A stretch of 35,464 bases of DNA, from assembly GCA_014730055.1 (NCBI GenBank), contig WJIV01000241.1, positions 1 through 35,464 on the forward strand, written 5' to 3'. The notes beneath the pieces are model-generated. The model searched no databases. It was not told where the DNA came from and saw only the letters and a list, made by a program, of their open reading frames with translations. Numbering within the stretch: position 1 is the stretch's first letter; each line of letters starts with the position of its first letter. The position numbers and the translations under genes are program-made. The stretch is from Candidatus Bathyarchaeota archaeon (GTDB taxonomy: Archaea > Thermoproteota > Bathyarchaeia > TCS64). Of the stretch, positions 3,006 to 35,464 are shown in pieces.

Positions 3006-3806
3006 TCATATTCCTCTTGAGCTAATCAGATTTCTACCATTATTATATATTATTGGTCTCGCATTTATTTGGTTCTTATTCAAAGTTACTTGTGTGAACC
3101 CATATGAGTCATATATATTATACCTATTCATTTCGATATGAAGTTCTGATAAGGCAGCGCAACCAACCAAGTACTGGATCCCCTTATCCTCAACAAAGAG
3201 ACTTTGATGAAGATGCCCACATAAAACAGCCAGAACATTTGACCCTCTAACTACTTCCTGAAATCTTGACATAGCCGATTCATCAAACACTAAATGCTTT
3301 TCACCGTTTGGTATATGCAAAGCGAAAGGTGGGTGATGAAGAGCAATTAAAGTGGGCTCATACTCCTCCTTCAACTCCTTACTGAGCCAATCAATCTGAT
3401 CCTCATCTAAATAACCCGTGTGTTTCCCTGGGCTTTGTGAATCTAGGGCAATTACTCGAATTCCCTCGATAATTGTGGCGTAGTAACAGGATATACTCTT
3501 ATCCGAATCTTGGTCTTTTAGAAGGCATTCCCTGAACCCTCCTTTCTTATCCACGTTTCCCATAACCGGTAATACTGGTCCACCAAGTGATTCTAGTTGA
3601 GATATGTACTCCTGGGCGATCTGATATCCAGGGATGGAGCCATCCTGGGAGATATCTCCAGTAATTAAAGAGAAAGCTGGCTTGATATTGGTATCCTTCG
3701 CCAATTCTATAACCCTCTCTATCTTGTTGCAGGGGTTTCCTTCCTTTCGACTTATGCTTTTCTCGGGAGGTATGTGAAAATCGCTGAAGTGGAAGAATGT
3801 TGTCAT
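3006..3806 (-). CDS. Calcineurin-like metallophosphoesterase (CpdA/Icc-like)
   Basis: A 266-residue protein with the full set of calcineurin-like phosphoesterase motifs: FSDFHIP near the N-terminus (DxH), LITGDIS (GD), VMGNVDK (GNxD), ALHHPPF (HH-type) and VLCGHLHQ (GHxH). These coordinate a two-metal centre. The motif spacing and length match the class III cyclic-nucleotide phosphodiesterase / Icc group, but many archaeal members act on other phosphoesters and the substrate is not readable from sequence. The ATG at 3806 places the first beta-strand directly at the start (MTTFFHFSDFH). There is no signal peptide or membrane segment, so it is cytoplasmic. It stands alone and is divergent from the SPFH gene; a short inverted repeat lies about 30 bp upstream. 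Confidence 0.88.
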   Translation of the reverse strand: MTTFFHFSDFHIPPEKSISRKEGNPCNKIERVIELAKDTNIKPAFSLITGDISQDGSIPGYQIAQEYISQLESLGGPVLPVMGNVDKKGGFRECLLKDQDSDKSISCYYATIIEGIRVIALDSQSPGKHTGYLDEDQIDWLSKELKEEYEPTLIALHHPPFALHIPNGEKHLVFDESAMSRFQEVVRGSNVLAVLCGHLHQSLFVEDKGIQYLVGCAALSELHIEMNRYNIYDSYGFTQVTLNKNQINARPIIYNNGRNLISSRGI

Positions 3807-4908: not shown

Positions 4909-5003
4909 TTTTTTAATTCTAGCAGATTCACAGATTCCAAATTCTGATAGTTAATTTTCTAAAAACTTTAGTACCTATTTATAGAATTGCATGAAAACAG
5001 ATA

Positions 5004-8394: not shown

Positions 8395-9108
8395 CTAAAG
8401 ATTATTATTTGATTTAGGTATTGACCAGTGACTATCTTTACCTGCTGAGACCCATCTTCCACCGAGCTCACTTATTCTCTCGTTAATCTCTTGCCAGAGG
8501 TTCTTGTCAAGGTACCTCGCTCTCTCTATCCTGAAAACTTCCTCTTGCTCCTTAATTGTGAGGACTTCCTCTAGGTCGGGGAGGTGTTCGGAGAGCAGGT
8601 ACTCCAATTCTGCCACGCTACTAACACTATATAGCTGCTCCGTAGAGTCTTCTTGACCTAGTTCCGCCTCCATCTCCTCTGCTGATACAGCTCCACCAGC
8701 CACCATATCACTGATTGCACGGCTTTTCGCCCTGGTATGAGCTGTAGCATATACGTCATGTTCCACGTGGGCAAATCGACGCTCCCTGCTATCGCAGGCA
8801 CCAACTCCAGTTGATACCCTACCATTTGGGGCCTCAACTTCAACTACTATACGCCAGAAGAAGCTACCATCATCCCTATCCACTCTCTCCTGCTCAAGGA
8901 TCCTGTCCGAGAGACCAAAGTAAACTGCTATCTTGCGGAAGCCACTACGCTTGATGTACCGCTTACCCGCAATGGGCTGATAATCCTCCTCTGTAAGCAG
9001 CTTTGACTTGAGCGCCTCAAAGAGAGCCCAATCCTCCGCTGCCTTCTCGGGTGAGACCAGAGGCTTCACGGGATTGAGTGAAATTGGCAGATCTTCTCTA
9101 TCAGACAT
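8395..9108 (-). CDS. Conserved archaeal protein resembling single-strand annealing proteins (operon gene 4)
   Basis: 237 residues and the last gene of the four-gene minus-strand operon, 53 bp after the beta-CASP gene. The N-terminal two thirds are the conserved part: DYQPIAGKRYIKRSGFRK, VYFGLSDRI, FWRIVVEVEAPNGRVSTGVGACD, then HDVYATAHTRAKSRAISDMV followed by GGAVSAEE (118-145). A strand-rich start followed by an A-TRA-RA helix and a Gly step resembles the core of Rad52/Sak/ERF-type annealing proteins, but I cannot assign a named family. The C-terminal 90 residues are acidic and helical (VAELEYLLSEHLPDLEEVL) and may bind a partner. There is no signal peptide or membrane segment. If the likeness is right it binds single-stranded nucleic acid beside two nucleases. 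A general archaeal single-strand-binding role is the main alternative. Confidence 0.55.
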   Translation of the reverse strand: MSDREDLPISLNPVKPLVSPEKAAEDWALFEALKSKLLTEEDYQPIAGKRYIKRSGFRKIAVYFGLSDRILEQERVDRDDGSFFWRIVVEVEAPNGRVSTGVGACDSRERRFAHVEHDVYATAHTRAKSRAISDMVAGGAVSAEEMEAELGQEDSTEQLYSVSSVAELEYLLSEHLPDLEEVLTIKEQEEVFRIERARYLDKNLWQEINERISELGGRWVSAGKDSHWSIPKSNNNL

Positions 9109-9161
9109 GGTTCTAATACATCTATTATAGAGGCTAATAAAATAATAATGAAATCGCAGAT

Positions 9162-10664
9162 TTAGAGGGTTATTTGTATTCCATATTTAGGACTCGAGAC
9201 TTTTTCGAAGCTTTTCTTAAGATATTCGGGGTTCTCAGTGTGTATAGGTATTATCTTCTTAGGATTTATTGTCTTCAAAGCATCTGCGATCTGTTTCCCG
9301 TTTGCGTGACCGGAGGCATGTAATCTATCCTCGTTGCTCATTCCATGGAGATCTAAGCCAAATAGGTCGAGCCAGTTTCTAACCCTCTCAGCATCCAGTT
9401 CCATCTCATCATCGAAGGGTTCTGTGATACTACGGAGGTATACACTGCCCGGTACCGGCTTAATGTCAACTAGGCTGTTGAGCTGGAAGTAACCACAGAT
9501 GAGGATATACTCGGACTGGTCTTGTATATCCCAGTGGTTAACGGTGTTTTCCCTGTCAAGATACTCTCTTTCCCAAGTAGAGTAGTCCTGCTCACAGATA
9601 TTGGAAGGATAGCAGAGCCCCTCGATGTTGCTGTAATAATCGTCCCTGCCAGCAATACCCCAACTCTTTCGCTCAGCGAAAAGGCATATATCCGGGTCTT
9701 CGGGTTCAGGATATAACTCTGTGAACTCGTTGAACCTCTCAAGTAGATAGGCCTGCTTAAAACTGATAACAAGTTTCCTTCCAGTCTCTTTTGCTATTCT
9801 ATGGAAGGTCCTAAACCGCGTGAGATCTCGGACTGGGAAGGTTATGACAACGAGGCCATTAGTATTCTCTACTAGCCTCTTGGCATTGTTGTATACCTCA
9901 GTCTCACTAGTGGACTCCGTACTCTCGATCCGGGTACCCTCAGTTATCACTGCGAGGATATCCTCCTCTGCTGCCTCGCTGATCATTTTCTCTGTCCGAT
10001 CTCCCAGGTATCCGTGAAACCGGTAATCACCTGTATAGAGCAACGTTCCCTCGGAAGTGTGTAATAGATATGCGGTAGCTCCTGGTAAGCTGTGATCTAC
10101 CTCATAGGGTACCACCTCTAGATCCCCTAACCTGAATTTGTCACCATACTCAAAAATTCTACACGGCCTGTCTAAGCACTCGTCTCTCTTAGTCTTTCTA
10201 GTGAATCCTTCACCTCTGGAATAGGGTCTCATCTCAAAATTGGGTACGTACTCCAGATAGTCGTTCTCGCCGCTGGTAGTAGTGTCCTGAAGCGTACGCA
10301 TCACTGCCCTTGTGCCCCTGCTCATAACAAGCTCTATATCTTTCCTTAGATGATGGACATAGGCCATATGGTCGACATGTGCGTGACTAATTAGGAGCGC
10401 ATCTACAAGCTGTTCCTCATCTTCTCTACCCATGTGCCTTAGATAGTCACCGCGGTAAATCCCAGGGATGTCTGGAAGAAGACCCGTAGCAAAGTAATCT
10501 CCAAGACCATTGCACTTCCTCGGCTGAAGGAACTCGCTAAAATATTTTCCAGACTGCTTGAAGCTCATTCCAAAATCTAGCAAGACCCGCGTATCCCGGT
10601 CCTCCAGCAGTATCTTGTTTCCGCCTATCTCTCCGACTCCACCGTAAAATGTTAACTCAACCAT
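9162..10664 (-). CDS. Beta-CASP metallo-beta-lactamase nuclease, RNase J-like (operon gene 3)
   Basis: 500 residues. Metallo-beta-lactamase motifs: LLDFGMSF (motif 1 Asp, D30), HAHVDH at 94-99 (motif 2), H191 in YEVDHSLPGA (motif 3) and YTGDYRFHG D213 (motif 4). Beta-CASP motifs follow: ITEGTRIE E242 (motif A), LHASGHANG H453 (motif B) and IPIHTENPEYL H475 (motif C), the last also marking the RNA-specificity domain end. All catalytic residues are present, so an active zinc endo- or exoribonuclease is likely; some family members act on DNA. The region at 330-400 between the two beta-CASP parts is longer than I would expect for canonical RNase J, and there is no KH domain as in archaeal CPSF. 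It lies 12 bp after the PIN gene and is surely co-transcribed with it. Confidence 0.85.
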   Translation of the reverse strand: MVELTFYGGVGEIGGNKILLEDRDTRVLLDFGMSFKQSGKYFSEFLQPRKCNGLGDYFATGLLPDIPGIYRGDYLRHMGREDEEQLVDALLISHAHVDHMAYVHHLRKDIELVMSRGTRAVMRTLQDTTTSGENDYLEYVPNFEMRPYSRGEGFTRKTKRDECLDRPCRIFEYGDKFRLGDLEVVPYEVDHSLPGATAYLLHTSEGTLLYTGDYRFHGYLGDRTEKMISEAAEEDILAVITEGTRIESTESTSETEVYNNAKRLVENTNGLVVITFPVRDLTRFRTFHRIAKETGRKLVISFKQAYLLERFNEFTELYPEPEDPDICLFAERKSWGIAGRDDYYSNIEGLCYPSNICEQDYSTWEREYLDRENTVNHWDIQDQSEYILICGYFQLNSLVDIKPVPGSVYLRSITEPFDDEMELDAERVRNWLDLFGLDLHGMSNEDRLHASGHANGKQIADALKTINPKKIIPIHTENPEYLKKSFEKVSSPKYGIQITL

Positions 10665-10676
10665 AAATAATCAATC

Positions 10677-11678
10677 TCAGAAAGGTATCTTCAACTTGTT
10701 TAACTCTCGACATATTTCCAAGTCACGCTCTAAAATCAGAGGTATTATTCCACTAAGGTAACGTAATTTGTACCGGTCCCTGCCAGTTCGGCCGCGATAC
10801 TCGCCGAACACCAGCACATTGTTAACCTGGACTACGCCAAGAACTCCAGCCAAGTTAAGTATAAGACGGCACAACTTCTCAGGGGAGCAGTAACTTGGAT
10901 TCACCACATCAGGGTATTCAAGAAGGAAACTTTGAACCCCGTTTGATTCGCAGACATCTGTCAGGAGCCTATCACTGGTAAGTACAACAGGATAAGTATT
11001 GCTCGTCTTCCCATAGTTCGCTACACCCTCTACGAAAACCATATCATTACGCTCTTTATCACCGGTTAGATCCTCTGTACGGACAACTGCATATGCCTTA
11101 TTCCGATATTTTAGAAACTCCTGCAGAGCGAGATTATAGGCCTTCCGACTCTGCTTCATACGACCATTAACAAACTCATCTAGGATCCCACTCTGAAACT
11201 TTGCAGCCCGTTTAAGATCATTTACATGTCTGGGAGTGTATTTCTTGTTTAAAACCAAGTTGATCTCATCATGCACAGACTCAACTACAAGGATCCGGCT
11301 AGGCTCAATAAGTCGATTAGAGAGAAACCTGTTATAGTATAAGTTAGTATCCGGGGCATATACAACATCCTGAGGTATATTTTCATAAGTTCTGTCCATT
11401 CGCTCGAAGTTCTCAATGTTTTTATAAGATGCGAGGCCGCTGGCTAAGAAGCACTGCATATAATCTGAATGATTAGGCTGCTCCAGCTGCCAAAGCTCCG
11501 AGGGGGAGAACCCGCTAAGGTCATTCTCTATGTGTAGCTCTATGTTGTAGATTTTTCCCTCATCCTCGATGGTGGCAATTTGTTCGTTGGTTAACGGATA
11601 GTCAATCTTAATGGACTTTGGCTGTAGGTTGAGGAATATCTGGAGTTCGTCCTTAGAAATAGTCACATCTGTTCTCAA
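10677..11678 (-). CDS. PIN-domain nuclease with long N-terminal region (operon gene 2)
   Basis: 333 residues. A PIN-like active site is visible: APDTNLYYN with D110, VVESVHDEI with E133/E138, ERNDMVFVEGVANYGKT with D212, and VVLTSDRLLTDVCESNG with D236 and D241, followed by the usual QSFLLEYP strand. Residues 1-100 form a separate N-terminal region (INIELH..., strand-rich) of unknown fold, and about 70 C-terminal residues are hydrophobic and helical. PIN proteins cut RNA, often tRNA or mRNA in toxin systems; this one is more than twice the length of VapC and has no adjacent antitoxin-like gene. The start is a TTG overlapping the stop of the previous gene (TTGA), supported by GGAGG eight bases upstream; a GTG four codons later is the alternative. 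Translational coupling to the CARF-like gene is likely. Confidence 0.75.
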   Translation of the reverse strand: MRTDVTISKDELQIFLNLQPKSIKIDYPLTNEQIATIEDEGKIYNIELHIENDLSGFSPSELWQLEQPNHSDYMQCFLASGLASYKNIENFERMDRTYENIPQDVVYAPDTNLYYNRFLSNRLIEPSRILVVESVHDEINLVLNKKYTPRHVNDLKRAAKFQSGILDEFVNGRMKQSRKAYNLALQEFLKYRNKAYAVVRTEDLTGDKERNDMVFVEGVANYGKTSNTYPVVLTSDRLLTDVCESNGVQSFLLEYPDVVNPSYCSPEKLCRLILNLAGVLGVVQVNNVLVFGEYRGRTGRDRYKLRYLSGIIPLILERDLEICRELNKLKIPF

Positions 11679-12148
11679 CTGGGAGGCCTCCGAGTCTCCT
11701 CACGTAGATCATGGAGTCTTTGTTGCTGGAAGGAAATCATGGTATAAGGCTTTGCTTTATCCTCGACATCATCAATCTCCAAGTAGTATATGTGATCAGG
11801 CTTATTGTCTGCAGTAGCCAGTAGTGCCCCAGAGACAACCGCTTTGCGAGCTGACGTGATATCCATGGCTGTTTCCATCTCTTTCAATGAATCAAAAAGT
11901 TTCCTTACCTGTATGCCTGCCTCCACGATCTTACCAGTAGGCAAAGTTAATGATCGTATCATGGGTCTTATGTCAAAGCCGATGCTTATTATATCAAAAC
12001 CCTCATCCAATACATCTAACTGATCTCCATATCTGGACTCAGTCACCAGCCATATAACATCGGGTCTAAAGTCGGTCTCCAACAGGACAGCATAATAAGT
12101 GTTCAGCGTGGCCCAGATGGAACGACCGTGGAGTGCGACGTATGCCAT
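11675..12148 (-). CDS. CARF-like nucleotide-sensor domain protein (operon gene 1)
   Basis: 157 residues from the ATG at 12148; the open frame extends 23 codons further, but the fold begins at MAYVALHGRSIWATLN. The pattern is a stand-alone Rossmann-like CARF domain: strand plus ligand loop (VALHGRSIWATLNTYYAVL), strand PDVIWLVTES, strand DIISIGFD, a helix rich in E/K, then MDITSARKAVVSGALLAT, which matches the D-x-T-(G/S)-x-(R/T)K signature of CARF domains that bind cyclic oligoadenylate, and strand DHIYYLEID. No effector domain is fused; effectors would be supplied by the overlapping PIN gene and the downstream MBL gene. It heads the operon with a TATA-like element 29-36 bp upstream. Assignment rests on motif pattern, not a search. 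A non-CRISPR nucleotide-sensing Rossmann protein is the alternative. Confidence 0.6.
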   Translation of the reverse strand: MAYVALHGRSIWATLNTYYAVLLETDFRPDVIWLVTESRYGDQLDVLDEGFDIISIGFDIRPMIRSLTLPTGKIVEAGIQVRKLFDSLKEMETAMDITSARKAVVSGALLATADNKPDHIYYLEIDDVEDKAKPYTMISFQQQRLHDLREETRRPPS

Positions 12149-12176
12149 TAATAATCGATAAATGTGTGATGACAAT

Positions 12177-12184
12177 TTTAAATT
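12177..12184 (-). promoter_or_regulatory. TATA-box candidate for the CARF-PIN-MBL operon
   Basis: On the minus strand the sequence reads ggattaaatttaaaattg, with the AATTTAAA core centred about 32 bp before the ATG at 12148. This is the spacing expected of an archaeal TATA box driving a transcript with a leader of only a few bases, and it supports the start chosen for the first gene. Confidence 0.4.
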
Positions 12185-12296
12185 TAATCCTAAAATGTTT
12201 CTAACTTGGAGAACCAAATTTTAATATATTATAACGATAGGAGATTCTCATGTTTTAGTGAAATCGTTTCGATGTATCAGTCACATTATTATAAAT

Positions 12297-14922: not shown

Positions 14923-16116
14923 TTAGGATTTCATATCACAAATATTCTTGAGTCGTTTAATGATAATCTCCTTATCCCCAGGGAGGAGATATTCTACCTT
15001 GAAAGTTATCATTAGCCCTGCTTCAGGTGATATGAAGAGGGGTTCATATAGTGTCTCAATAGGAGGATCTGACTCCATAAGATATTGGTGCACTTTCTTC
15101 AGATCGATGCTTGAGTTCTCCTCGGATTTTATGTAAGTATAAGTAGGAGGATGGAGAGAAGGGTCTATAGTCGGCTCATACAGAACACCTGATCTGAGGC
15201 CCTTTATATTTCCAAGTTCATAGGCTAGGTCTCTGCTTCTTTTCTCCATGTTTTCGTAATACTGGTTATCATCACGTTCTGTGAAGATATCCAAGGCCTT
15301 AACCAGACCCACTATTGTCTCTCGACTCATCTTAGCTGCACGTCCGACTCCATCGAAGGGGTATGAGTTTAAATGAGCGAGTTTTACAAGATCTTTTCTT
15401 CCTGCGAGTATTCCAGAGTTGTTAGGTCCTGCTAGCTGTTTTCCTCCGCTGAAGATCATAAGATCTGCACCACGTTCCTTTAGAATAAGTGGTACCTTTT
15501 TATGGGTGAGGTTTGGGGCAGCGTCGACAATTAATGGTAGATCATGTTCATGAGCTATTTTAGCAAATTCTCCTATGGGCATTAGTTCAGGTTTTGGTTG
15601 GATTGTATAGTAGAAGGCGGCTGTTTTGTCGGGGTTCACTGCTTTATGAATGTCATCAGCTTTAACGCCATTGGATGTTCCTGCCTCTACCATTACCCCA
15701 CCTGCGCATTCTACTGAATGATCATAAACATTTCTATCATTCTTCATAACCACGAACTCATTTCTCAAGCCCTTGGTTTTCAAAGGTAGTCTCTGGATTA
15801 TTTGAGTCCAACTCTTTTTCATGAAGGGATCATAATCCTCGAGTTCGGTTCCCTTGAAGATACATGCCGCAGATGCAAGCATTAATGCACAAGCTGCTCC
15901 ACTTGTTGGAAGGGCGTAATCGGTACCTAATTTTTTCGCTATATGGGATCCAGCCCATCTCTGGAGCTCTGGAATTCGAACGAATGCTCGGGAGGCATCT
16001 TTCATGCTCTCGAATACCTCATCATGAGGGATACTTCCTCCTAACCTCGTCAAGCTAGTGGCTGCGTTAACTGCACGGGTTAAGCCATACTTCCTGTAAG
16101 GATCATAAGGTTTCAT
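14923..16116 (-). CDS. SelA-like PLP-dependent enzyme (selenocysteine synthase / DgaE-type lyase superfamily)
   Basis: 397 residues from the ATG at 16116 (MKPYDPYRKYGLTRAVNAATSL); the TTG at 16158 would add 14 residues with no family match. The SelA-like large-domain signature is clear: RAVNAATSLTRLGGSIPHDEV at the start, LPTSGAACALMLASAA, IVDAAPN with D198 contacting PLP nitrogen, and IFSGGKQLAGPNNSGILAGR with the Schiff-base lysine K226. Non-selenium members of this family are beta-eliminating ammonia lyases of amino sugars or diamino acids. Archaea make selenocysteine by SepSecS, not SelA, so a lyase role is more probable. It is divergent from the QueG-like gene with an inverted repeat between them. 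Confidence 0.87.
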   Translation of the reverse strand: MKPYDPYRKYGLTRAVNAATSLTRLGGSIPHDEVFESMKDASRAFVRIPELQRWAGSHIAKKLGTDYALPTSGAACALMLASAACIFKGTELEDYDPFMKKSWTQIIQRLPLKTKGLRNEFVVMKNDRNVYDHSVECAGGVMVEAGTSNGVKADDIHKAVNPDKTAAFYYTIQPKPELMPIGEFAKIAHEHDLPLIVDAAPNLTHKKVPLILKERGADLMIFSGGKQLAGPNNSGILAGRKDLVKLAHLNSYPFDGVGRAAKMSRETIVGLVKALDIFTERDDNQYYENMEKRSRDLAYELGNIKGLRSGVLYEPTIDPSLHPPTYTYIKSEENSSIDLKKVHQYLMESDPPIETLYEPLFISPEAGLMITFKVEYLLPGDKEIIIKRLKNICDMKS

Positions 16117-16193
16117 TATTGCATAGTTATACTTGGGAACAATTGAGATTATTGGCAAATACTCACCAAAGCAAAAACTTAAGATGTAATTTT

Positions 16194-24107: not shown

Positions 24108-25127
24108 TCATAGCAATATCAAGATAATGCTAGTGTAGTATGCAAGTGGAAATATTATTCTACTTAAAAAATCAAACTTCCTAGCATAATTTTTTTGTCC
24201 TTTTTTCGTCAAAACATAACTTAATAATGTTTCAAGAATTGTCAACGAGAGTATTATATAACTAATAATCATAATCGTGTCAAGTATGGTAAAATATGAT
24301 AATTTAGGGAGAGACTCTGTACTCACGAAATCGAATGCTACAATAGTAAGGACACTTGTAAGAGATATTTCTACTCTGTCTGAGATGCTAACTGAATCGT
24401 AATCCATCCAGAAGACTGCCCAAGATATCGAAATAATAAGAACTAATGGCAGTACATATTTTGATATATAAAACCAGGGTATTCTGCTGATACCAAGGGT
24501 ATAAGTTGCATAAGGTAAAGTGTCAATATTTTCAATGACTAATTTTCCACTATCCGTTACTATCCATTCGTTTGTCTCCCAAGTGAATGTCTGGGGTTCA
24601 ACCTCTGAGTTGAACACAAGCTCATAATCAGTATAGCTGAAACTGCTGATCGTCAAGTTAACTAAATGTGTATCAAACGGAAAGTCCCCTAAGTAAAATG
24701 GATGTTTAATAACAGCTTTAAACTTCTCTTCATAAAATACCGATCCATCGGGATACACCTCCAAAAATGAGTTTAGTATCTCTCTCTTACCTTTTGATTT
24801 TACAAGATAGAGATCGGGCCACCAGGTATCTTCTTCGAATTTCTGGGAAACTATTTCGTTGCGGTAAGTCTTCCATGGAAACCCGAATTCTTCTTGATCA
24901 AAAGATAATCTGTGGTCTATCCATTGTGCAGTTATAAACCCATCAATTTCAAATGTTTGCTCTTTTTCATTTATGGATAGAATATCACTTATGTAGAGGT
25001 TGATATTTACAGATGTTGGGCCATCGAGATTGGGGGGTAAGAGTTGCTGAGAGTTATCACCATTAACATATGTAATGTTTTGTAGTAATATCGTAAGTAA
25101 GAAAATTATTAAGAATCTTCTACACAT
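24108..25127 (-). CDS. Prokaryotic pentameric ligand-gated ion channel (Cys-loop receptor superfamily)
   Basis: 339 residues. A signal peptide (about 1-23, FLIIFLLTILLQNITYVNG) is followed by a beta-sandwich ligand-binding domain: VNINLYISDILSINEKEQTFEIDGFITAQWIDHRLSF in pieces, the WWPDLYL strand, DGSVFYEEKF and YLGDFPFDTHLVNL, where FPFD (149-152) is the Pro-loop core without the two animal cysteines. Four helices follow: M1 (YVLPLVLIISISWAVFWM, P227), M2 (ISDRVEISLTSVLTIVAFDF), M3 (FTILDTIMIISYIILSLTIL) and M4 near the end. Layout and length match GLIC/ELIC-type channels. The ligand is unknown; M2 has no clear selectivity residue change visible by eye. It is divergent from a large orphan membrane protein and followed by an AKR homologue. 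Confidence 0.88.
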   Translation of the reverse strand: MCRRFLIIFLLTILLQNITYVNGDNSQQLLPPNLDGPTSVNINLYISDILSINEKEQTFEIDGFITAQWIDHRLSFDQEEFGFPWKTYRNEIVSQKFEEDTWWPDLYLVKSKGKREILNSFLEVYPDGSVFYEEKFKAVIKHPFYLGDFPFDTHLVNLTISSFSYTDYELVFNSEVEPQTFTWETNEWIVTDSGKLVIENIDTLPYATYTLGISRIPWFYISKYVLPLVLIISISWAVFWMDYDSVSISDRVEISLTSVLTIVAFDFVSTESLPKLSYFTILDTIMIISYIILSLTILETLLSYVLTKKGQKNYARKFDFLSRIIFPLAYYTSIILILL

Positions 25128-27246: not shown

Positions 27247-27987
27247 ATGGACTTCTGGAAACTCATGGATATACTACATTCTAGAGAGAAAATAATGAAC
27301 CCCTTAAGAGAGCAGAAATTCGCGCGATTCTCAGAGAACCTTAGACTATCTAGAAAGAGCAAGGTACTCGATATCGGATGTGGCAAGGGCGAATTCCTCT
27401 TCAAACTATATGAGATCTATAAAATAAGTGGAGTCGGCGTCGATCTATCTCCTTATTGTATTAAAGATTGCAAACGCGAGAAGGTAACCAGAGCCCCAAA
27501 TTCTGAGATCGAGTTCTTACTAATGGACGGAAAAGATTACAAAACAGATGAGAAATTCGATGTAGCATCATGTATGGGAGCTAGCTGGATCTGGGATGGG
27601 ATTAAAGGCACACTGGATGCTCTAAAAAGCATGACTAAACCTGAAGGCATAGTGATCCTGGGAGAACCCTACTGGAAGCAGAAGCCATCTGAGGAATACT
27701 TGGAAAGGGAGCAGTTTGAGATAGATTCTTTTCATACTCATAGGGAGAATATAATGATAGGGGAAGAACTTGGTCTCCGATGTCTATACACCATGGCAAG
27801 TGACTCTGAAGACTGGGATCACTACGAGACCTCCCACTGGTGGGCTGCGAGCGACTACTCCATTAATAATCCCAATGATCCTGATCTAACCGAGCTATGG
27901 GAATATGTGAAAAAAATCAAAGACACCTATCTTACTTACGGCCGTAAGACCTTGGGATGGTGCCTCTATGTTTATCGGAACCATTGA
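27247..27987 (+). CDS. Class I SAM-dependent methyltransferase
   Basis: 246 residues. The Rossmann motif I is VLDIGCGKGEF at 40-50, followed by GVGVDLSPYCIKDC (motif post I with the acidic ribose contact) and FDVASCMGASWIWDG around motif II/III. The C-terminal half (KPEGIVILGEPYWKQKPSEEYL) has the acceptor-site features of a small-molecule or SmtA-like methyltransferase, while the N-terminal helical cap of 35 residues is short. The acceptor cannot be named. It follows the orphan membrane protein by 40 bp on the same strand and may be co-transcribed. Confidence 0.88.
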   Translation: MDFWKLMDILHSREKIMNPLREQKFARFSENLRLSRKSKVLDIGCGKGEFLFKLYEIYKISGVGVDLSPYCIKDCKREKVTRAPNSEIEFLLMDGKDYKTDEKFDVASCMGASWIWDGIKGTLDALKSMTKPEGIVILGEPYWKQKPSEEYLEREQFEIDSFHTHRENIMIGEELGLRCLYTMASDSEDWDHYETSHWWAASDYSINNPNDPDLTELWEYVKKIKDTYLTYGRKTLGWCLYVYRNH

Positions 27988-34813: not shown

Positions 34814-35464
34814 CTAACTATTTTTAGTAATTTTTGCGATAAAGAACCCCTGACAATGGTGTTTGAAAGGATAAAGCCTCTGATTCTTCTCAAAACCTCT
34901 CAGGCCAGGTTCTCCTAGTCTGGGATTTGCTTCTGCTAATTCGAACTCTGGATGTTTTTTTAGAAAATTTATTATGACACCCTCATTCTCCTCAAAGGTA
35001 ATACTACAAGTGCTATAGATCACTGTACCTCCATCTCTAACATGATCTCCTGCAACTTCCATCATCTTGCTCTGCAGGCTAGCCATTCTGTAAATTGAGT
35101 TCTCGTTAATCCTCCACTTCCCTGAGGGGTAATCGTTGAAGGTTCCTGTTCCAGTGCAGGGGGGATCTAGTAAAACTAAATCTGCCTCCACATCAGGCAT
35201 TTCAACTGGTTCAGTAGCATTTGCAAGTACAGATTCAGCATTTTTCACCCCCAAATTTTCGATAATTCCCTTCCATGACTCCAATCTCCTAGCATCGTAA
35301 TCAACAGAGATTATTTTTCCTTTGTTATTCATTAGCTGTGCAATATGACTGGTTTTAATTCCAGGAGCAGCGCAAATATCCAGTACTAAATCATCGAAAT
35401 TTGGTGAGGAGACTTCACCGACGAGGGCACTTGCTTTGTCCTGGAAAATCAATTCTCCCCTTTG
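34814..35464 (-). CDS. NOL1/NOP2/Sun-family RNA m5C methyltransferase (5' end outside window)
   Basis: The frame is open to the right edge (QRGELIFQDKASALV), so the start is beyond the window; 216 residues are visible. NSUN motifs: LVLDICAAPGIKTSHIAQLM (SAM binding), ISVDYDARRLE, LVLLDPPCTGTGTF with the release Cys, and VIYSTCSITFEENEGVI with the catalytic Cys, then RLYPFKHHCQGFFIAKI at the end. The methyl acceptor is cytosine in rRNA or tRNA. An upstream PUA or N1 domain, if present, is not visible here. Both cysteines are kept, so the enzyme should be active. Confidence 0.92.
   Translation of the reverse strand, partial: QRGELIFQDKASALVGEVSSPNFDDLVLDICAAPGIKTSHIAQLMNNKGKIISVDYDARRLESWKGIIENLGVKNAESVLANATEPVEMPDVEADLVLLDPPCTGTGTFNDYPSGKWRINENSIYRMASLQSKMMEVAGDHVRDGGTVIYSTCSITFEENEGVIINFLKKHPEFELAEANPRLGEPGLRGFEKNQRLYPFKHHCQGFFIAKITKNS

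Follow-up and report, generated by a model that had tools for sequence, protein, structure and literature searches.

Most work on CARF effectors has treated them as outputs of type III CRISPR (clustered regularly interspaced short palindromic repeats) systems, where Csm6, Csx1 and other ancillary effectors couple a CARF sensor to an RNase. A 2014 paper (PMC4012209) records that CARF genes exist outside CRISPR as well and that PIN domains associate with two CARF families. The CARF_m1 family is already catalogued in PADLOC, as a sensor (PDLC01971) and as CARF_m1-PIN (PDLC01973), and a CARF-PIN protein of Sulfolobus islandicus, SiRe_0806, has been solved (PDB 9jxw, 9jxx) as one polypeptide whose N-terminal part is presumably CARF, judging from the cyclic tetra-adenylate (cA4) bound to it; the literature search found no paper naming this protein. 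Here we analyze a window of 35,464 nucleotides, meaning the whole stretch of DNA under study, from Candidatus Bathyarchaeota archaeon (contig WJIV01000241.1), in which the original prediction, made from the sequence alone, had placed an operon of four genes: a CARF-like sensor (gene 1), a PIN nuclease (gene 2), a beta-CASP nuclease (gene 3), and an annealing-type protein (gene 4). With a probability of roughly 0.55, genes 1 and 2 constitute a split CARF-PIN ribonuclease that acts outside type III CRISPR in most of the genomes carrying it, with gene 3 as a helper. Many archaea in which no Cas10 was found carry the two genes as a close pair, so that the trigger of a CARF nuclease becomes open to direct test.

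Genes 1 and 2 match the PADLOC CARF_m1 and CARF_m1-PIN profiles collinearly. The match of gene 1 to PDLC01971 (E=4.7e-41, 138.6 bits) backs the CARF identity that had been read from a D-x-T-x-x-R-K motif; the motif itself is present as D96-x-T98-S-x-R101-K102 and agrees with the D-x-T/S-x-x-R/K ligand-pocket pattern, and D96, T98, and K102 are invariant among 27 aligned sequences, that of the window included. The profile confirms gene 1 as a candidate CARF_m1 sensor. A weak alignment (E=0.11) links a Thermococcus-type relative to the part of Csm6 that holds the motif. Names attached to some homologues point to Bathyarchaeota as the source of the window, and one named CARF homologue comes from Hodarchaeales. 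Gene 2 matches the PIN half of PDLC01973 with E=1.5e-9, and its four PIN acidic residues (D110, E138, D212, and D236) show no variation across an alignment of 22 sequences, again including the window. Its structure model (pLDDT, predicted local distance difference test score, of 88.5) adopts a PIN fold, and the best PDB match of the model is SiRe_0806, whose C-terminal residues 151-418 are matched over nearly the whole length of gene 2; gene 2 thus appears to encode a PIN-domain ribonuclease. No sequence-level match to SiRe_0806 was found, and what is one polypeptide there is encoded here by two overlapping genes. The system also differs from the PADLOC CARF_m1-PIN entry in being split and in having an RNase J-like neighbor and, outside this lineage, a HAD hydrolase as well, and it differs from Csm6 and Csx1 in carrying PIN where those carry HEPN and in that Cas10 was not found in most pair-bearing genomes.

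The pairing of genes 1 and 2 is the part of the predicted gene order that stands in full, whereas gene 3 is retained in part and gene 4 not at all. A PIN gene follows the CARF gene on the same strand in 76/76 loci, with a gap of more than 100 bp in L025 and L030, and since the loci were chosen by CARF alone, this pairing is not built in. The 76 loci comprise 36 from a scan of genome contigs, 20 of 44 places in a sample of 120 genomes from the order of G002, picked mostly among the lower-scoring, and 20 of 27 strong places in Thermococcus-type genomes; close kinship among many of them, and the shared genome of L014 and L100, mean that they do not count as independent. A HAD hydrolase gene follows the PIN gene in 45 of the 76 (including L014, L024, L085, L087, and L091) and in none of the 22 Thermococcus-type loci; type III CRISPR has known effectors in which CARF and HAD are fused (PMC12715507). 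A strong CARF_m1 match occurs in 27 of 61 Thermococcus-type genomes, three of the 27 strong rows (G012, G039, and G040) having an in-frame stop inside the match. Four neighbor families recur in 16-17 of the 22 Thermococcus-type loci and therefore suggest stable chromosomal inheritance, which looks less like a defense island. No CARF_m1 match was obtained in viral contigs and plasmids. In four loci, L032-L035, two related small genes lie just 5' of the pair; in L033, the one locus examined, each matches CARF3 profiles, and Pfam places a helix-turn-helix (HTH) domain in one of them.

Gene 3 exceeds the Pfam cut-offs for Lactamase_B_2 and RMMBL, matches PDB 2az4 with E=1.7e-19, and contains the metallo-beta-lactamase (MBL) and beta-CASP motifs HAHVDH, DHS, EGT, HASGH, and HTE. 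It shares this layout and these motifs with Ribonuclease J and is a putative RNase J-like nuclease. Its TIGR00649 score of 79.6 bits lies far under the curated subfamily cut-off of 400. Assignment as Cas14 of type VII CRISPR was rejected (19.7 bits against an NCBIfam cut-off of 800), and gene 3 homologues are present in 6 of 50,697 phage records, at 19-27% identity. Of the 76 loci, 7 have a gene 3 homologue immediately upstream of CARF, a share that depends on the choice of loci. The order in the window is CARF-PIN-MBL, and in the seven loci it is MBL-CARF-PIN, mostly followed by HAD, so that the link between gene 3 and the pair is either old and rearranged or has arisen twice; both suggest a functional tie. 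Contig sizes were compared among 43 CARF homologues, the best 120 of 3266 gene 3 homologues, and the best 120 of 522 gene 4 homologues. Nearer to the window, CARF homologue P0012 and MBL homologue P0175 lie on contigs of equal size (55,811), and their co-location was judged convincing; of the other coincidences of CARF and gene 3, that at 4965 is possible, that at 3106 is poor by identity, and those at 1338 and 1828 are due to chance because contigs of this size cannot hold both genes and an intervening PIN. The membership of gene 3 is partly supported: it is a recurrent but optional partner. In genome G014, which has two CARF_m1 loci (L014 and L100), a gene 3 homologue lies upstream in both.

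In the mechanism proposed, the products of genes 1 and 2 would form a complex in which the CARF dimer of gene 1 would bind a ligand, either a small nucleotide or an RNA end, and, once bound, would switch on the PIN domain of gene 2, which would then cut cellular RNA. PIN nucleases leave 5'-phosphates, the ends favored by RNase J enzymes, and gene 3 may therefore clear the fragments, probably by degrading those with a 5'-phosphate handed over by PIN. As the pair would act outside type III CRISPR in most carrier genomes, the ligand would normally be made by something other than Cas10; it may be cA4 by analogy with SiRe_0806, but the usual maker of cA4 was mostly not found. How widely the split pair occurs, that it is not tied to Cas10, and that it has partners of RNase J-like and HAD type did not turn up in the literature searched (including PMC4012209, PMC12669027, and PMC9704534), a body that excludes the 2020 CARF classification by Makarova, which may already report CARF_m1 outside CRISPR.

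The pair shows no tie to Cas10. In genomes whose completeness is not given, the Cas10 profile PF22335 was matched in one of the 36 behind the first loci, in 4 of the 27 strong-CARF_m1 Thermococcus-type genomes, and, in the order sample, in 4 of 43 with the pair as against 7 of 77 without CARF_m1 (Fisher p=1.0; the two order draws of 120 are taken as the same genomes, their handles agreeing). PF22335 also matches in the Escherichia coli control and therefore, as this hints, errs toward over- rather than under-detection. When 27 genomes were run with TIGR02577 and TIGR02578, the seven PF22335-positive genomes exceeded the TIGR02578 cut-off, and in the 20 PF22335-negative ones TIGR02577 had no matches and TIGR02578 stayed below its cut-off. 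Eleven of these 20 have weak, N-terminal TIGR02578 matches (<27 bits) in open reading frames (ORFs) of 206-216 amino acids in ten genomes and 333 amino acids in G104, which are taken as HD-domain proteins; the 20 also include 11 Thermococcus-type genomes in which the pair-bearing contig is about genome length. An anticorrelation of Cas10 and CARF_m1 in the Thermococcus-type set (4/27 vs 7/10, p=0.003) appears only if the set is cut at G071, a choice of our own with kinship not given; over all 46 genomes the counts are 4/27 vs 7/19 (p=0.16), and that claim was dropped, only the lack of a tie being maintained. Among 58 chosen pair-bearing genomes none matched mCpol at E 1e-3, a search in which no control reached the cut-off, so that sensitivity is not shown, and which did not cover DisA/DacZ. 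SMODS matched in 35 of the 58 at the same E value and exceeded the cut-off in one, by 0.1 bit; judged by ORF length and general knowledge, these matches are presumably CCA-adding enzymes. A more tentative generalization is that many archaea may possess a PIN ribonuclease gated by CARF and in some cases accompanied by an RNase J-like helper. It would respond to a second messenger or an RNA-end signal produced by no Cas10, mCpol, or CBASS (cyclic oligonucleotide-based antiphage signaling system) cyclase and would serve as a CRISPR-independent RNA-decay switch.

Several observations weigh against a CARF-PIN pair that works outside type III CRISPR with gene 3 as helper. Some pair-bearing genomes do carry Cas10, its absence is less sure in fragmented genomes, and it may be present in the window's own genome, the counts coming from relatives. 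The only solved relative, SiRe_0806, carries cA4, which is what Cas10 usually makes. By sequence, gene 1 has no significant match among solved structures, as is also true of genes 2 and 4 and of relatives (best E=0.021, to 3i8o), and a CARF fold of gene 1, the point on which the original prediction turned, is predicted from the profile. The upstream homologues have 29-32% identity to gene 3 (three of the seven measured), and in a FastTree tree of gene 3 with 112 of the best 120 of 3266 homologues, eight being excluded by length, all seven form one branch apart from gene 3, subject to a long-branch warning; recruitment of gene 3 in the window and in the seven loci may therefore have been independent. 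The crystallization of SiRe_0806, the best structural match, with cA4, the Cas10 found in 4/27 and 4/43 pair-bearing genomes, and the position of the window's genome outside the counts also speak for a type III CRISPR ancillary effector in trans, in which Cas10 elsewhere would make the cA4 that activates the pair. However, Cas10 was not found in 35/36, 23/27, and 39/43 pair-bearing genomes and is equally common in the order sample with and without the pair, and we consider this explanation unlikely.

A housekeeping or RNA-damage response comes next and is likewise improbable. Here the ligand of CARF would be an RNA end, for example a 2',3'-cyclic phosphate, and damaged RNA would be removed by PIN and the RNase J-like protein. 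RtcR offers the precedent, as its CARF domain responds to cyclic-phosphate RNA ends. According to PMC7790460, damaged tRNAs regulate the RNA repair operon. The abundance of the pair in the Thermococcus-type set and its recurring neighbors would fit such a role, but no RNA-repair gene was noticed beside the pair (RtcA and RtcB were not searched for). That gene 1 is instead a ligand-free structural inhibitor of a PIN toxin is very doubtful, for although a small gene overlaps the PIN gene as in VapBC and the weaker fold matches of gene 2 include VapC chains, the CARF motif residues D96, T98, and K102 of gene 1 are invariant and PADLOC contains a fused CARF_PIN profile.

Gene 4 was likewise predicted to be an annealing-type protein, and its model (pLDDT 77.3; Foldseek match to RAD52, E=1.4e-4) agrees, with moderate confidence, with a Rad52-type fold. 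It thus resembles Rad52/Mgm101 annealing proteins in predicted fold and differs from them in that neither Pfam nor PADLOC yields a significant family and NCBIfam gives nothing above its cut-offs; it does match two PHROGs whose function is unknown. Its place as a component of the system is not supported: the four-gene operon as a unit was rejected because no gene 4 homologue occurs in any of the 76 CARF-PIN loci. Gene 4 has 522 homologues, the best 120 of which were listed, and there are also 28 viral loci, in the fetched stretches of which no CARF, PIN, or gene 3 was found, and a search of 35 related genomes, run without a positive control, gave no match. In the contig-size comparison, the coincidence of CARF and gene 4 at 2247 leaves no room for PIN and gene 3 in between, and a contig of 1889, where gene 3 and gene 4 coincide, could not hold the two genes. 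Gene 4 is probably a neighbor, which may have an unrelated recombination role.

Table 1. Features of the locus, in window coordinates.
Feature	Position	Strand	Basis
Gene 1, candidate CARF_m1 sensor, 157 amino acids	11675..12148	-	PADLOC profile, motif, alignment
Gene 2, putative PIN-domain ribonuclease, 333 amino acids, TTG start	10677..11678	-	PADLOC profile, alignment, model
Gene 3, putative RNase J-like metallo-beta-lactamase/beta-CASP nuclease, 500 amino acids; optional partner	9162..10664	-	Pfam, TIGR00649, PDB, motifs
Gene 4, predicted Rad52-fold annealing-like protein, 237 amino acids; probably outside the system	8395..9108	-	Model, Foldseek
A/T-rich, TATA-like region 5' of gene 1	12149..12217	-	Read by eye

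The layout described originally is borne out by the ORF list and by inspection of the sequence: four minus-strand genes with a 4-bp overlap between genes 1 and 2, gaps of 12 bp between 2 and 3 and 53 bp between 3 and 4, and a TATA-like element (Table 1). The ORF of gene 1 is listed from an upstream TTG at 12217, and aligned homologues begin near 12148. A second A/T-rich, TATA-like stretch, seen by eye within the 53-bp gap, means that gene 4 may have its own promoter. The window contains no CRISPR-like repeat array, as had been stated, a tRNA search of it returned none, and Rfam gave no match at the gathering score. PADLOC recognized no defense system or cas gene among 34 ORFs of the window, so that the proposed check for adjacent defense genes came back empty; besides genes 1 and 2, it has matches in three ORFs only, for which shared folds are the likely cause. 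Those at 34814-35452 and 27247-27987 each match part of the mad2 profile, the latter being a plain methyltransferase by Pfam, so that its match is probably generic. The ORF at 14923-16158 (minus strand) encodes an enzyme resembling SelA and class-V aminotransferases, and it matches the SspA and DndA profiles weakly, probably owing to a shared fold. Although the window looks archaeal, the ORF at 24108-25127 (minus strand) encodes a protein in which both the ligand-binding domain and the membrane domain of neurotransmitter-gated ion channels are present.
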